NCBI GenBank assembly: GCA_015075625.1
Contig: JABTTZ010000002.1
Location: 620,001-684,000 of the forward strand
Length of the DNA stretch: 64,000 nucleotides
Source: Anaerolineales bacterium
Lineage (GTDB): Bacteria; Chloroflexota; Anaerolineae; Aggregatilineales; UBA2796
Reading direction: 5' to 3'
Made by a program: the position numbers and the translations under genes
Notes under the pieces: model-generated
Databases searched by the model: none
What the model saw: only the letters and a program-made list of their open reading frames with translations
What the model was told of the DNA's origin: nothing
Part shown: one piece after another, positions 1,094 to 44,588 of the stretch
Numbering within the stretch: the first letter of the stretch is position 1
Layout: each line of letters starts with the position of its first letter

Positions 1094-1516
1094 CTATACC
1101 TTTAGTGCTTCAACCAATGCCTCATGAAGCTGCTCGAACGAGGCATACTTTGCCACACAGCTTACCGCCCCCGCTCGCAGCATTGCCGTTCGCAGGTGGG
1201 CGTCCTCAAACCCGATAAGGGCGATCACACGCACTTCTGGACACCGTTCGCGCAGCATATAGGCAACGTCAATTCCATTGAGCTTGGGCATTGAAATATC
1301 CAAAAAAATCACGTCTGGATGGGTCTTCAGGCATAACTCCACCGCCCCCATACCATCGTGTGCCATACCAAGCAACGTTACACCATCGATTGCGCTTAGA
1401 AAGCGCTTTAGGCTTTGACACATGGGGGCAAAATCATCGGCTATAACAACCTGCACCGTTCTTGATAATGGCTCACTGTGCAAGGGGTAGCCAATGTGAC
1501 TATTTTGTTGGATCAT
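1094..1516 (-). CDS. Receiver domain protein, NarL-like but without the DNA-binding domain
   Basis: About 140 residues. The receiver resembles that of LuxR/NarL regulators but stops before any helix-turn-helix. Counting from the ATG at 1516 the acidic pair is D27-D28, the phospho-acceptor D73 (IFLDISMPKLNG) and the lysine K123. The position that normally holds a switch Thr/Ser reads isoleucine (VIALIGF), so phosphorylation signalling may be altered. The ATG at 1516 has GGA eight bases upstream and leaves ~20 residues before the receiver; an ATG at 1597 would add 27 unconserved residues. It may be a truncated NarL-type regulator or a phosphate sink. Confidence 0.75.
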   Translation of the reverse strand: MIQQNSHIGYPLHSEPLSRTVQVVIADDFAPMCQSLKRFLSAIDGVTLLGMAHDGMGAVELCLKTHPDVIFLDISMPKLNGIDVAYMLRERCPEVRVIALIGFEDAHLRTAMLRAGAVSCVAKYASFEQLHEALVEALKV

Positions 1517-1660
1517 GGTACGTTCCGTTAAGTACTGTGGCACGGTACTGATTCCCCCAATAGCGATAATCATATGCTCAAATAGTGGAGAATACATCCG
1601 TAAAGAGGGGGGTTTTGCCCTAGCCGATAGTCTAGTTTTCTCCCTAGTCGCTCAGAGCCA

Positions 1661-2302
1661 TTACTTCACCAGTTTCTTCTCCAGCGCCAAAGCGACTGCC
1701 TCGGTGCGGCTGGTGACGCCCAATTTGGTGAGGATACTGCTGATGTGAAATTTCACTGTGGAAAGGCTGACGGTCAATCGCTCCGCTATTTGTGGATTGC
1801 TCATCCCCTTCACGAGGAGAGTCAGCACCTCTTGCTCGCGTGTGGTAAGCATGTAATCGGGGAGCGGGGGTTGGGTTGCCGTTCGTACCAGTGCTTCTGT
1901 CGCCTCTGGATCAAGGTAACGCAAGCCAGCAACAGCATTGCGAATGGCGCGTTCAAGCTCCTCAAAGGTAACACTCTTGAGGACGTAGCCTGTTGCCCCC
2001 GCCTGAAGGGCGGTTTTGACCATTTCATCCTCTTTAGAACTGGTGAGAATGATGATTTTGACCTCAGGTTGGGCGGTTTTGATGTGGCGGGTGGCCGCAA
2101 TACCGTCCATACGGGGCATCAGGATGTCCATCAAGATAACATCGGGCTTCGCATTGGCACATAGTTGTACGGCATCTTCGCCATTGGCGGCTTCGGCAAC
2201 CAATTCCATATCGCTGAAGGCGCGTAAAAAAACCCCTAATCCGCGCCGCACAACATCGTGATCATCCACTAACATAACCCGAATCATTGGCGCATCACTC
2301 AT
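1661..2302 (-). CDS. NarL/LuxR-family response regulator
   Basis: A 213-residue DNA-binding regulator. The receiver has D13-D14, phospho-acceptor D59 (ILMDILMPRMDG), T87 and K109 (VLKS). A C-terminal LuxR-type helix-turn-helix begins at LTTREQEVL near residue 150 and includes NPQIAERL and STVKFHISSIL. The start is the ATG at 2302: it overlaps the stop of the upstream kinase as ATGA and has GGAGGA three bases before it, so the two are translationally coupled. The kinase at 2299-3474 is therefore its cognate sensor. A decayed relative of the pair lies at 52-53.8 kb. Target genes are unknown. Confidence 0.93.
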   Translation of the reverse strand: MSDAPMIRVMLVDDHDVVRRGLGVFLRAFSDMELVAEAANGEDAVQLCANAKPDVILMDILMPRMDGIAATRHIKTAQPEVKIIILTSSKEDEMVKTALQAGATGYVLKSVTFEELERAIRNAVAGLRYLDPEATEALVRTATQPPLPDYMLTTREQEVLTLLVKGMSNPQIAERLTVSLSTVKFHISSILTKLGVTSRTEAVALALEKKLVK

Positions 2303-3474
2303 GCATCCTCCTGGACATTCCAAACCAATTCGACCAAACATCCTTTGTCGGGAGCGCTGATGCATTGGAACTGCGCACCGACTCCGGTGGCGCGTTCGTG
2401 CATGATCATCAAGCCCATATGCCCTGATTGAATCATCTTAAGATCGAACCCTTTGCCATTATCGCGGATAGAGAGCCGCACACCCTCTAGCGTGCGGATG
2501 AGGTGTGCCTCAACAAAAGTTGCCCCCGAATGTTTGAAGATGTTATTTAACGCTTCTTGTGCTACACGGTAAAAGACAAGCTGGACCTTACTGGGAAGAT
2601 CACGCTCACCCTCAACATTCAAGGTGTACTCTACCATCATACGCCCGGCAAGGGCGTTCATAAGGTGCGTTAACAATTCCCGCATGTTTGCTGTTTCTAG
2701 GGTATGCGGGCGTAGTTCAAAAAGCATCGTTCGCATCTCTGCCAATGCCCCAAGATTCAAGCGGGCAAGCTCCACAAGACCTTCTTGAACGGCGTCACTC
2801 CCTTTTTTCCACAGGTGGGGCAGCGTCTGGGCAACCATGCTGGCAGAAAAAAGCGTCTGAGTGACGGAATCATGAAGTTCGCGGGCAAGCCGTTGGCGTT
2901 CGCTGTTGACAGCAAGCGCCTTCACTTCTTCTGTCCGTTCAGCAATCTTTTGTTCAAGCATCTCGTTGAATCGCGCATTCTCAATGCACACAGCGGCATG
3001 GCTGGCAATATAGCCAAAGATTTCTAAATCAGCATCGCGGAATAAATCTGTTAGCGTGCGGTTCTCCACGTATAACCCGCCGATCACTGTCCCCCGTGCG
3101 ATGAGAGGGGCGCACATCACCGAACGGAGTTTCAAGGCGTGAACACTATGAGCATTGGAATAGAAAGGGTCTTCAATGGCACTGGCGGTAATCAGTGCTT
3201 TTTCTGTGGTGATTGCCTGTCCTAAAATAGTATAACTGATCTGCATCTCTGGTTCAGAAATCTCGCCCCCACCACGACTTCGTTTCACGCGGAAATCGAG
3301 TTCGCCCGTTTCCCCTATAAGAACAAGAAACCCATATTCTGCCCCAAACATATCAAGCGTGGTATCCATCGAGTATTGCAAGAGGGGGTCAAGGGCGCGT
3401 GTCTCCGCCATCTGACGACTAATATCAATCAGTTTGGGAAGGCGTTCGTCATAGAGAACAGGCTTCTCAGTCAT
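2299..3474 (-). CDS. GAF-domain sensor histidine kinase (HisKA_3/NarX type)
   Basis: A cytosolic histidine kinase of ~391 residues without membrane segments. A GAF domain spans roughly residues 20-170, then a short coiled coil, then a HisKA_3 dimerisation box (RQRLARELHDSVTQ, phosphorylated His about 201) and a HATPase_c domain with DNGKGFD. This architecture pairs with NarL-type regulators, and the next gene is exactly that, with a 4-base ATGA overlap. The ligand of the GAF domain cannot be told from sequence. A GTG three bases upstream (3477) is an equally possible start. A purine-rich AGGA lies about nine bases before the ATG. Confidence 0.92.
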   Translation of the reverse strand: MTEKPVLYDERLPKLIDISRQMAETRALDPLLQYSMDTTLDMFGAEYGFLVLIGETGELDFRVKRSRGGGEISEPEMQISYTILGQAITTEKALITASAIEDPFYSNAHSVHALKLRSVMCAPLIARGTVIGGLYVENRTLTDLFRDADLEIFGYIASHAAVCIENARFNEMLEQKIAERTEEVKALAVNSERQRLARELHDSVTQTLFSASMVAQTLPHLWKKGSDAVQEGLVELARLNLGALAEMRTMLFELRPHTLETANMRELLTHLMNALAGRMMVEYTLNVEGERDLPSKVQLVFYRVAQEALNNIFKHSGATFVEAHLIRTLEGVRLSIRDNGKGFDLKMIQSGHMGLMIMHERATGVGAQFQCISAPDKGCLVELVWNVQEDA

Positions 3475-40850: not shown

Positions 40851-41300
40851 CTAAAACAAACTCAACTGCGTCAGGTCTTGGGCGGGGGGGGGCGGCGGTT
40901 GTTCTGCAGGCGACGGGAGGGCTGAGGCAATTTCCGATTCGTCGTGTGCCTGTGGTTCTTCAACATATGTGGCAGGGGAAACATCCGGCTTCGGCTCAAT
41001 CATGACGGCAAGGGCAGCCTCCAAGCGTGCCAGCGCCATCTCCTCGGCGGGGGTTGTCTCCACGCGGGGCATGTCTGATTCCTCCTCAACGGGTGGGCTG
41101 TTAATTTCCGACTCGGCATCGTGCGAGGGAGGGATCCCTTCGTACTGAAGGGCGTCCAACTCGTGAGAATCGACCCCAATACGGAGCAAGACACCGCGCA
41201 AACTTGCCTCGTTGGAGGTATCTTGCTCCACTACCACGAAACGGTAATGTGCTATCAAACAGGCGTACCATTCCTCCGCAAAGGGATTATAGGTGGGCAT
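40851..41300 (-). CDS. Small acidic protein ending in a beta-clamp-binding-like motif
   Basis: 149 residues, no family recognised. A folded-looking N-terminal part (1-55: FAEEWYACLIAHYRFVVVEQ, LRGVLLRIGVDSHELDAL) is followed by an acidic, proline-rich disordered tail. The last residues are LTQLSLF-stop; QLSLF matches the consensus pentapeptide (QL[S/D]LF) used by bacterial polymerases and repair proteins to bind the DnaN sliding clamp, and it sits at the extreme C-terminus after a flexible tail as in many such partners. It is in a run with NurA and a nuclease. The clamp role is inference. Confidence 0.7.
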   Translation of the reverse strand: MPTYNPFAEEWYACLIAHYRFVVVEQDTSNEASLRGVLLRIGVDSHELDALQYEGIPPSHDAESEINSPPVEEESDMPRVETTPAEEMALARLEAALAVMIEPKPDVSPATYVEEPQAHDESEIASALPSPAEQPPPPPAQDLTQLSLF

Positions 41301-41347: not shown

Positions 41348-42757
41348 TTACAGCGTGAAACTTTGCCCAAAGGTCGGCAGATCAATGTGTTCCAAACCCA
41401 CCTCTGCCGTCAAGCCTTGTTTCAGTGAAAGCAGCGGCTTTTCTTCGCCATGCACAAGGAAGGTTCGGCGGGGCTTCTTCTTGATCGCCCCTGCCCAATT
41501 TAACAAATCCGTCCGTCCAGCGTGTGCCGAAAAGCCGCTGATGCGAACGATCTCCGCACGAACATCAAACTTTTCGCCAAAGATGCTCACGGGCGATTCA
41601 TGGTTTTCCAGTTTACGCCCTAGTGTGTGTTCCGCCTGAAAACCAACCAGCAAAATGGTGTTCCGCTTCTGCTCAATGTTGTTGCGCAGATGGTGCAAAA
41701 TGCGCCCCGATTCCGCCATCCCACTGGCGCTAATGATCACAATGGGGCGATCAATCCCATTCAGCGCCTTGCTGTCATCCGCCGAGCGCGTGTATTTCAA
41801 CCCCCTAAACCCAAAGGGATCGCGGCTGGCGGCTGAGCCGCTAATGAATTCGCGGATTTCTTCATCATAACATTCAGGGTGGTTGCTGAACACACCGGTG
41901 ACATTCACGGCGAGTGGGCTATCGACATATATCTCCATCGGCGGGATTTTCTGCTCAAGGGTGAGTTGGTGTAGGGTGTACACAAGCTCTTGCGCCCGTC
42001 CAACGGCAAAGGAGGGGATGATCACCTTGCCCCCCCGTGCATAGGTGCGTCCGATCACATCTTGGAGGATCGCTTTCGCATCGTCATAGCTTTCGTGATC
42101 TTTATCGCCGTAGGTGCTTTCCATAATCAGCACATCCGCCTCATCAATGGTCGATGGGTCGCGCAGGATGGGCGCCCCGGGTGAGCCAATATCGCCGCTA
42201 AAGACCAACTGAATGTCTTTGCCCGCCTCACGGTCTTCGATGGTCAGGCTGGTAATGGCGCTCCCTAGCATATGTCCAGCATCACGAAAGGTGAGTGCGA
42301 TTCCGGGCAAAATCTCAACAGTGCGTTCGTAGCCCACACTCCGCAGGTATTTCAGTGCCTTCACCGCATCCTCTTGGGTGTAGAGCGGTTTGAAGGGGGG
42401 CAGTCCCTCACGGGTGCGAATCTTGTTCGTAAATTTGACATCGCTCTCTTGAATGTGGGCGCTGTCGAGGAGCATTGCCCCGCACAGGTCTTGAGTTGCC
42501 CCTGTGCAGAAAATATCCCCCCGAAAGCCGTTCTTTACCAGCATAGGAATATTTCCGGCGTGGTCGGTATGGGCGTGGGAGAGAACCATCACATCGATCT
42601 GCGCCGCATCAAAGGGAAGTTTGCGGTTTTTATCAAAGGCTTCCGAGCGCTTGCCCTGAAACAAGCCGCAGTCCAGCAAGATGCGCCGCCCGTTGACCTC
42701 AATGAGGTGTTTGCTACCCGTCACTTCGTGGGCAGCCCCATGAAAGGTAATCTTCAT
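41348..42757 (-). CDS. Metallo-beta-lactamase/beta-CASP nuclease with RMMBL domain
   Basis: 469 residues. The zinc-binding motif is SHAHTDHAGN (H61, H63, D65, H66), with FRDAGHMLGSA and FSGDIGSPG as further metal ligands, a beta-CASP insert (IIPSFAVGRAQE, YVDSPLA, ISASGMAESGR) and the terminal RMMBL part (FSAHAGRTDLL, FLVHGE). This is the CPSF73/YSH1-like branch of RNA nucleases, distinct from RNase J. Bacterial members are thought to process RNA; DNA-acting beta-CASP enzymes (Artemis, SNM1/Pso2) also exist. The gene begins 14 bases after the HAS-barrel gene. Confidence 0.92.
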   Translation of the reverse strand: MKITFHGAAHEVTGSKHLIEVNGRRILLDCGLFQGKRSEAFDKNRKLPFDAAQIDVMVLSHAHTDHAGNIPMLVKNGFRGDIFCTGATQDLCGAMLLDSAHIQESDVKFTNKIRTREGLPPFKPLYTQEDAVKALKYLRSVGYERTVEILPGIALTFRDAGHMLGSAITSLTIEDREAGKDIQLVFSGDIGSPGAPILRDPSTIDEADVLIMESTYGDKDHESYDDAKAILQDVIGRTYARGGKVIIPSFAVGRAQELVYTLHQLTLEQKIPPMEIYVDSPLAVNVTGVFSNHPECYDEEIREFISGSAASRDPFGFRGLKYTRSADDSKALNGIDRPIVIISASGMAESGRILHHLRNNIEQKRNTILLVGFQAEHTLGRKLENHESPVSIFGEKFDVRAEIVRISGFSAHAGRTDLLNWAGAIKKKPRRTFLVHGEEKPLLSLKQGLTAEVGLEHIDLPTFGQSFTL

Positions 42758-42771
42758 GATTCGTGTCTTTC

Positions 42772-43362
42772 TTATGGTTTGATGAGGCGCAGCAAGTGAT
42801 TTAAGCGGGGGAGATCACCGCTTAACAATTGCGCCAAACGCCGTCCAGATCGTACCAGAAAATCGCGTTGTTCGCGCTCATGACGTGCCAATGCCGCGTT
42901 TTTGACCGCTGCCGCCAGCAATTCCTCCGCCGGCACTTCCGAGGTGTTCAGAATCAGGCGGAAGAAATCGGCGTTCTCGGTGAAGGCGATCACGGTGTCG
43001 GCATCGCATAGGTAGACTGGATCAAGGCTGAGCGGCGGACGCGGCGGCAGCGCTTGATAAATATCGCCGCGCACCTGATAGCCAATGTTGACGATGCTGA
43101 TCTCAACCGGAATCATCCGGTTTTCGCGCTGGTCACGGATGGCAGCGGTGGTCAGGTTATTCGCCATGATCAACTGGCGAACGAGCGGATCGTCGTCAAT
43201 GCGAATGGCGTAGATCAGCCCGATGATGCGCAAGGACTCATCATGTTCGGTGTAGACGAACGCGCCAAAATACGGCGTCGTAATCTCACTGCCGCGCATC
43301 CCGCAGGCATACCCTGTTGTGCTTGCGCGTAAGACGCGCCCAATCAAGCCCGAATCGTCCAC
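42772..43362 (-). CDS. Stand-alone HAS-barrel-like protein (HerA N-terminal-type domain)
   Basis: 196 residues. The N-terminal ~110 (GLIGRVLRASTTGYACGM, TTPYFGAFVYTEHD, RIIGLIYAIRIDDDPLVRQL) resemble the HAS barrel, the small domain at the start of HerA and ATP synthase subunits; in HerA it helps dock the NurA nuclease. No P-loop or ATPase core follows; instead there is a helical C-terminus (AAVKNAALARHEREQRDFLV). The GTG at 43362 has GAAGGAG 11 bases upstream. It lies 20 bases after nurA, fitting a NurA partner. The domain call is by pattern and needs profile confirmation. Confidence 0.68.
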   Translation of the reverse strand: MDDSGLIGRVLRASTTGYACGMRGSEITTPYFGAFVYTEHDESLRIIGLIYAIRIDDDPLVRQLIMANNLTTAAIRDQRENRMIPVEISIVNIGYQVRGDIYQALPPRPPLSLDPVYLCDADTVIAFTENADFFRLILNTSEVPAEELLAAAVKNAALARHEREQRDFLVRSGRRLAQLLSGDLPRLNHLLRLIKP

Positions 43363-43382
43363 GTTGGCATCGACTCCTTCAA

Positions 43383-44588
43383 TTAAACCCCTTCATGGTG
43401 GCGGCGACCATAGCGAGCAAGGTGTTTGCTGCTCAATTTTTGAGACATTTCCAACCGCTGCCGATTTTTCAAGAGCGCTACTGCAATCATGTCGTCAAGA
43501 TAACGCTTCTCGGCGGGCTGCACCACAGCGATTTCATCGGCACGGGTTAACGCATAGGGATAACGATCTGTGATCTGGCACTGGCGGTGAAGGATGGACT
43601 GCACGGCGTTGACCAGCGGCTTGTTACGTGCCACCCACATGGGCAGTTCCACCCGCACAATGTAGGGGGCTTGTCCGGTTGAGGCGGCGTTTAGATAGAA
43701 AAAGACGATCTCTTGATGGTCGCCATGCCGTTCTTTGTATTCTTTGTTCAGCGGACTTTGCTGAATCATCAGCCCAGAGCGACTCCCAGGGGGCAGCAGG
43801 CGGGCATAGAGATCGCTGTCGGTGATGTTCTCCAAAAGCGGAACGCTGACGTTCAGGCGGGTTACTTCGTCTTCGGTGAGGGTCATCAGGTAAAGCGTAT
43901 AGACAAGGAAGCGGCTGGAGGGGCGATCCACATAGCCGGTCAGGGCAACACCCTCATCAAAGAGGAAATCCATCGCCTCGTGGTAGTCCATCGTCAACAT
44001 GCCCGCGTTCGGAATATCTTTCCCCATCGGCATTCCGATCAGGGGTCCGTCATAAAGCGCGATACGCGGCGTGGCGTCGTCCCCTTTACGGATGGCGACT
44101 TTGGCAAGGGTTTGCATTTCATAGACCGTTCGCCGCGCATTGATTGCCCCACTGCTGATCAAGCGCCCCTCGCTGTCACGGATGTCTTCCTCGCGGTAGT
44201 ACAACTGCGGCTCAACCACGATCTCCGGCAGGCGATCCGTGCCGTGATGATAGATGAACACACCAATATTCGTTAGCCAGTAAGGGGCGGGCGCGTGTTG
44301 GTCGGGGTAGATTTGCGAACCATCCGCCGCGTAGATCGTTGCCAAATCTGGCGCGGGGCAAAGGTCAATCGGTCTATTCAGCGGCTCATCCATTGGCGCA
44401 GCGCCGCGAAACCCGGCGTCATTGTGACGGGCGAGTAAGATGCGCTCCCAAATTTCATTCAGATCAGTTGCCTTCATCAGCAGATCAAAGGCAGTTTCGG
44501 TCTGCTCCAAAATGCTGCTGCGCTGATCGGCAACTTCCAAGCCCATTTGCGCGACTTGCGGTTCAATCTTCTCAAAAGGGAGTGCCAT
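43383..44588 (-). CDS. nurA: NurA-domain nuclease
   Basis: 401 residues. The NurA domain is marked by IYAADGSQIYPDQH (metal-binding D89), RIALYDGPLIG (D180), the LVYTLYLMTL region and the C-terminal YPYALTRADEIAVV. NurA is a 5'-3' nuclease which in archaea acts with HerA, Mre11 and Rad50 in end resection; bacterial forms occur in thermophiles, cyanobacteria and Chloroflexota. It is the first gene of a long minus-strand run. HerA is absent from the window, but a HAS-barrel protein follows immediately. A ~45-residue helical N-terminus precedes the domain. Confidence 0.85.
   Translation of the reverse strand: MALPFEKIEPQVAQMGLEVADQRSSILEQTETAFDLLMKATDLNEIWERILLARHNDAGFRGAAPMDEPLNRPIDLCPAPDLATIYAADGSQIYPDQHAPAPYWLTNIGVFIYHHGTDRLPEIVVEPQLYYREEDIRDSEGRLISSGAINARRTVYEMQTLAKVAIRKGDDATPRIALYDGPLIGMPMGKDIPNAGMLTMDYHEAMDFLFDEGVALTGYVDRPSSRFLVYTLYLMTLTEDEVTRLNVSVPLLENITDSDLYARLLPPGSRSGLMIQQSPLNKEYKERHGDHQEIVFFYLNAASTGQAPYIVRVELPMWVARNKPLVNAVQSILHRQCQITDRYPYALTRADEIAVVQPAEKRYLDDMIAVALLKNRQRLEMSQKLSSKHLARYGRRHHEGV

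Follow-up and report, generated by a model that had tools for sequence, protein, structure and literature searches.

Does a small protein that ends in a sequence reading like a docking motif for DnaN, the bacterial sliding clamp, serve as a client of that clamp, and if so, what would it do there? The question is raised by a candidate clamp client encoded on the minus strand at 40851–41300 of a 64,000-nucleotide stretch of an Anaerolineales genome, referred to here as the window. The ORF starts with ATG and specifies 149 amino acids, with the stop codon included in the coordinates. Its C-terminus is AQDLTQLSLF followed by the stop, so that the original prediction of LTQLSLF directly before the stop is borne out. 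That prediction carried no strand; the plus-strand reading of 40851–41300 is interrupted by two stops. An acidic, proline-rich tail had also been described and is indeed present at about residues 58–144.

Domain Organization and Family Distribution

AlphaFold2 modeling and conservation among 124 family members divide the protein into three parts, all on the minus strand. An N-terminal three-helix domain (41130–41300, residues 1–57) has helices at residues 8–24, 28–40, and 45–55. It is followed by an acidic, Pro-rich linker (40869–41129, residues 58–144), mostly unstructured according to AlphaFold2 with a predicted helix at 84–99, and by the C-terminal pentapeptide QLSLF (40854–40868, residues 145–149), the putative DnaN-binding motif. 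An initial search with the single sequence over 101 genomes gave matches in 71 (E ≤ 1); many of the weakest covered the tail alone. Family membership was defined instead by a profile of the N-terminal domain (profile A2, 27 rows, cut-off E 0.01), which matches 131 of 154 genomes of the order and 82 of the 90 good-quality genomes. There is one match per genome, except in three of the 131, which have two partial matches. Some lineages of the order are without the gene, and the weakest profile matches include two in family f3 and one that spans 14 positions at the edge of a contig. In a sample of 396 genomes from the class, all 31 with a match fall within the order. Of 400 genomes sampled from the phylum, four had a match (E ≤ 0.01): two belong to the order itself, and the matches in the other two are partial and weak and were judged to be chance. 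The family was therefore not convincingly matched outside its order and appears confined to it, absence elsewhere being drawn from these phylum and class samples and not from every genome.

Profile libraries offer no name for this family. A Pfam search of the 149-residue protein gave no match up to E 10, and the same search with 30 family members gave scattered weak matches, the best to DUF5791 (E 0.0018, in 2 of the 30). No AAA+ or other regulator domain was found by Pfam in the protein itself or in the 30 members, whose weak matches are unrelated. Matches were likewise weak for the 30 members in NCBIfam (best E 0.028) and for 27 N-terminal domains in PHROGs (best E 0.011), while a sequence search of the PDB reached E 0.012 at best with a molecule named NF6. 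A search of viral contigs produced 15 pattern matches and no relatives. A literature search, which was not exhaustive, turned up no publication that deals with this protein or with clamp clients from its order. The family thus appears to be missing from the libraries searched and would be new, with a docking mechanism that is already known.

Conservation of the Terminal Pentapeptide

To follow the pentapeptide through the family, we retrieved 134 stretches, of which 132 came from the 131 genomes of the order, and a family ORF was found in 131 stretches (all but L240, L243, and L244). Seven of the 131 (L114, L141, L237, L238, L239, L241, and L242) were dropped before motif counts because they were weak, split, cut by a contig end, or contained N. 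Among the 124 complete members, 114 have Qxx[LMF]F at the very end, 103 end in Q[LMI]x[LMF]F, and 48 end in the strict form QL[SD]LF. The corresponding counts among 44 representatives thinned to less than 60% identity are 36, 31, and 18. The original prediction proposed an alignment of homologues as a check, and in that alignment no part of the tail is as conserved as the pentapeptide: information content in the full set reaches 3.75 bits for the Gln and 3.79 bits for the Phe, followed by 3.20, 2.48, and 2.30 bits for positions 4, 3, and 2, vs 0.8–2.7 bits for positions −20 to −6, where the strongest signal is a proline two residues before the Gln (2.66 bits). QxxLF is given as a general clamp-binding consensus in one report, which also places QLSLF at the C-terminus of PolC and describes positions 1, 4, and 5 as critical (PMC12309361). 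Having Q1, F5, and then Leu, Met, or Phe at position 4 as the strongest columns is therefore the pattern expected of clamp-binding motifs. Once the set is thinned, positions 3 and 4 tie at 2.64 bits, a result that one would not predict from the weight given in print to positions 1, 4, and 5.

A chance match was considered and ruled out by the 114 homologues together with two controls. Shuffling the tails gave Qxx[LMF]F in 23 of 124,000 cases, and the motif ends only 1 of 1456 neighboring ORFs of at least 100 residues, a set of mechanical calls that includes spurious antisense frames. That single ORF is the uracil-DNA glycosylase of genome G001. Among ORFs in conserved neighbor clusters, 0 of 840 have the motif. 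The coding 15-mers of the 103 members that end in Q[LMI]x[LMF]F occur in 85 different forms, with both Gln codons and both Phe codons in use, which indicates that the protein and not the DNA is conserved.

Homologues without the pentapeptide had been named as an outcome that would count against a clamp motif, and here the result is divided: the motif is kept at the end of the large majority described above, but 7 of the 124 lack it (L130, L138, L139, L140, L143, L144, and L197). Three further members (L142, L196, and L209) have the pentapeptide plus one or two extra residues. Inspection of three frames downstream of the motif-less members restored it in none. L130 lies 84 nt from a contig end, and the terminal stretch of L144 is atypical. 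In family f5, the three complete members (L138, L139, and L140) are all genuinely short at 71–72 residues and end just after the helical domain. Apparently, the helical domain can persist without the motif in some lineages, and these short f5 proteins suggest an independent function for it.

Helical Domain and Linker

The three-helix domain is predicted with high confidence. In the AlphaFold2 model of the full-length protein, pLDDT is 94–97 over residues 11–50, and the domain modeled alone forms the same three helices (pLDDT 91–94, pTM 0.68). The linker of the full-length model is of low confidence (pLDDT about 58–78) apart from the helix at 84–99, and residues 101–149 (pLDDT about 60–75) have no regular structure in the model, which would place the motif at a flexible terminus. 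In most clamp binders, the residues involved are located at the N- or C-terminus (PMC2705854). Linkers of the family vary in length and sequence and are usually very acidic, with a mean net charge of −21.8 for the tails (range −49 to 0) vs −2.7 for the domain; total protein length runs from 71 to 222 residues.

The most conserved domain columns among the 124 members are F7, W11, L15, Y19, V22, D27, L34, V37, G42, and L48, and these would mostly reflect the needs of a hydrophobic core and helix caps. No catalytic signature is present among the conserved columns of the helical domain. A metal site at C14 and H18, which among the first 30 members resembled a CxxxH pair, was rejected after C14 proved to be Ser in 35 and H18 to be Gln in 42 of the 124. 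Fold searches returned no relative either: Foldseek gave no match at E 0.001 or better against the PDB, with the full model or the domain alone, nor against viral models. Second looks with VIA reached Z scores of at most 7.5 (3bey, rmsd 5.8, 68 residues) and at most 5.7, within the range stated for unrelated helical models. Domains of clamp-loader subunits (3zh9, 8giy, and 8umv) are among the very weak fold matches of the three-helix domain, with Foldseek E of 6.6–9.3, VIA Z of 2.2–2.6, and rmsd of 3.4–4.8, values that are indistinguishable from chance helix-bundle similarity.

The Clamp and Other Proteins with the Same Tail

A search of the whole genome with a DNA pattern for QLxLF followed by TRR gave five matches, and the reversed control pattern gave 13, which makes DNA-level frequency alone uninformative. 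QLxLF followed by a stop ends three ORF frames of at least 60 residues, namely, the protein discussed here, a uracil-DNA glycosylase, and a helicase-like ORF; of the other two matches, one is followed by TGG, which is no stop, and one ends no ORF of at least 60 residues. The glycosylase (PF03167, 1.2e-34; 1501–2208 of locus L248, minus strand) has homologues in 60 of 61 genomes. Loci were obtained for 30 of these glycosylases; in 29 of the 30 tails examined, a linker rich in Pro and acidic residues leads into a terminal Qxx[LMF]F, and the 30th ends in QMGLFD. This glycosylase (L248, with homologues in L252–L281) is a probable second clamp client of the order. The helicase-like ORF (1501–3018 of locus L246, minus strand; PF00271, 5.6e-5) ends in QQLALF, with 505 residues seen before it is cut at the locus edge, and its neighbor at 592–1491 of the same locus looks primase-like by eye, perhaps as part of a mobile element. 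An internal QLGMF is found in DnaE.

The clamp itself is encoded in the same genome (1114–2238 of locus L245, minus strand). This DnaN has all three clamp domains and is 28% identical to DnaN of Escherichia coli, relative to which it keeps G174, R176, the Pro of FPD, the Asn and Tyr of NVxY, and the terminal YVVMPM. Changes include, in E. coli numbering, H175 to Y, L177 to M, and R246 to A, among others. The positions compared are ones that we take to line the clamp cleft.

Genomic Neighborhood

Directly upstream in the window, 47 nt away on the same strand, is a gene for an RNase-type β-CASP/RMMBL metallo-hydrolase (41348–42757, minus strand; Pfam PF10996 2.1e-39 and PF07521 2.5e-15). Upstream of that gene, within 42772–44588 on the minus strand, are a 196-residue ORF without a Pfam match and a NurA gene (PF09376, 2.5e-24), and downstream of the 149-residue ORF are two flavoprotein genes. 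In 57 of the 123 stretches with at least 1.5 kb of upstream sequence, the gene directly upstream is a β-CASP gene in the same orientation and no more than 800 nt away, and 43 of these 57 neighbors overlap the family gene or sit within 30 nt of it. When β-CASP presence was counted by hand over the 154 genomes (E 1e-100 or better), 83 genomes had both genes, 48 this gene only, 16 β-CASP only, and 7 neither. In family f4 the β-CASP gene is present but elsewhere, and nearly all genomes of genus g31 have no β-CASP match. An obligate β-CASP partner was rejected, since these counts show no positive association; the link is one of neighborhood and not of obligate function.

Other neighbors are more scattered. 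In 59 of 114 stretches, a TadA-like gene lies no more than 3 kb downstream in the same orientation. We take neighbor cluster 0 to be TadA and count RNase D and CorA among the upstream neighbors, in each case from the sequence read by eye. RNA-related genes recognized by eye (RNase D, β-CASP, and TadA) recur around the gene across much of the order (L111–L242). Another neighbor, cluster 20 (for example, in L157), is an uncharacterized 271-residue ORF that begins with a membrane-type segment and contains CxC/CxxC cysteines; it directly follows the gene in 14 of the 15 loci holding the cluster. A NurA/HerA partner was set aside, as NurA is nearby in only 3 of the 131 loci listed (L111, L114, and L121). 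Of the loci listed, only L114 and L121 repeat the gene order NurA, 196-residue ORF, β-CASP. No universal genome context for the gene was found, and no partner emerged from the neighborhoods.

Proposed Role and Alternatives

Selection for DnaN binding best accounts for a clamp motif that is retained across the order behind a linker that is otherwise not conserved. Together with the like tail on nearly all of the glycosylase homologues, this conservation supports the original suggestion of a new clamp client, and from these sequence comparisons we consider it very probable that the protein binds DnaN through its C-terminal motif. Given such binding, an adaptor or recruitment role is likely, and it is the most economical reading because there is no catalytic signature and no standout family or fold match. 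Overall, we lean toward a DnaN client that acts as a clamp-tethered adaptor. QLSLF would insert into the hydrophobic cleft of DnaN, and the long acidic linker would let the three-helix module reach away from the clamp ring. The module, with its conserved hydrophobic core, would bind a partner, either protein or nucleic acid, that would thereby be brought to replicating or repaired DNA. Both the adaptor role and the partner are offered as a guess.

The main rival to the adaptor is a regulator that competes for the cleft. Its tail would occupy the DnaN cleft and restrict entry by DnaE, the glycosylase, and other clients, the helical domain would serve as a sensor or dimerizer, and the protein would presumably act in the manner of Hda, YabA, or SocB but be distinct from all three. 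The conserved clamp motif, the single copy across the order, the highly acidic linker, and the missing catalytic signature all suit such a protein, but Pfam searches found no AAA+ or other regulator domain, motif-less members exist, and an ordinary long linker with a motif common to a repair enzyme would fit recruitment equally well. Because the f5 proteins point to a domain with its own function, an adaptor also fits better than a pure competitor, and we regard regulation of this kind as unlikely. Still less probable is a bridge from the upstream β-CASP RNase to the clamp, with RNA cleavage at primers or R-loops at forks. The close spacing of the two genes, which overlap or nearly touch in 43 stretches, and the frequent RNase D and TadA neighbors speak for it; the hand count over 154 genomes, the relocated β-CASP gene of f4, and its absence from the matches of nearly all g31 genomes speak against it.

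The pentapeptide might also be a different C-terminal signal, such as a degron or another docking motif, with no relation to the clamp. DnaN binding of the tail is putative, and QLxLF is an imperfect predictor: one source describes this bacterial consensus as often poorly conserved and as absent from some clamp binders (PMC2705854). However, the motif matches the experimentally studied PolC C-terminus (PMC12309361), and it recurs at the end of a repair glycosylase while being nearly absent from neighboring ORFs, so that we give another signal very little credence. A further tentative proposal, which we regard as rather doubtful, is that the family is an order-specific, nonenzymatic replisome component, a clamp adaptor or regulator evolved by a whole order of Chloroflexota, whose new three-helix domain recruits an enzyme to DnaN or controls access to DnaN, a job that would be done elsewhere by unrelated proteins such as Hda or YabA. 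The best-known bacterial clamp interactomes are those of E. coli and Bacillus subtilis, and a family found in 131 of 154 genomes of its order, whose domain has no name in the profile libraries searched, would point to a part of replication or repair in Chloroflexota that is hidden from model organisms. A direct prediction follows: the five-residue peptide should bind the cognate DnaN.

Relation to Known Clamp Binders

PolC of B. subtilis resembles this protein in having QLSLF at its extreme C-terminus, with the same positions best conserved. In contrast to PolC-type clients, the protein described here has no polymerase or recognizable enzymatic domain and offers only a helical module of 55 residues. 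The uracil-DNA glycosylase of the order (PF03167) shares the acidic, Pro-rich linker and the terminal QLSLF-type motif but has a catalytic UDG domain, and the N-terminal parts of the two proteins are unrelated. Hda, YabA, and SocB are clamp-binding regulators. Compared with them, our protein has no AAA+ or other recognized domain and gives no sign of a toxin or mobile origin, and yet, like them, it could be a protein that targets the clamp but takes no enzymatic part in DNA synthesis.
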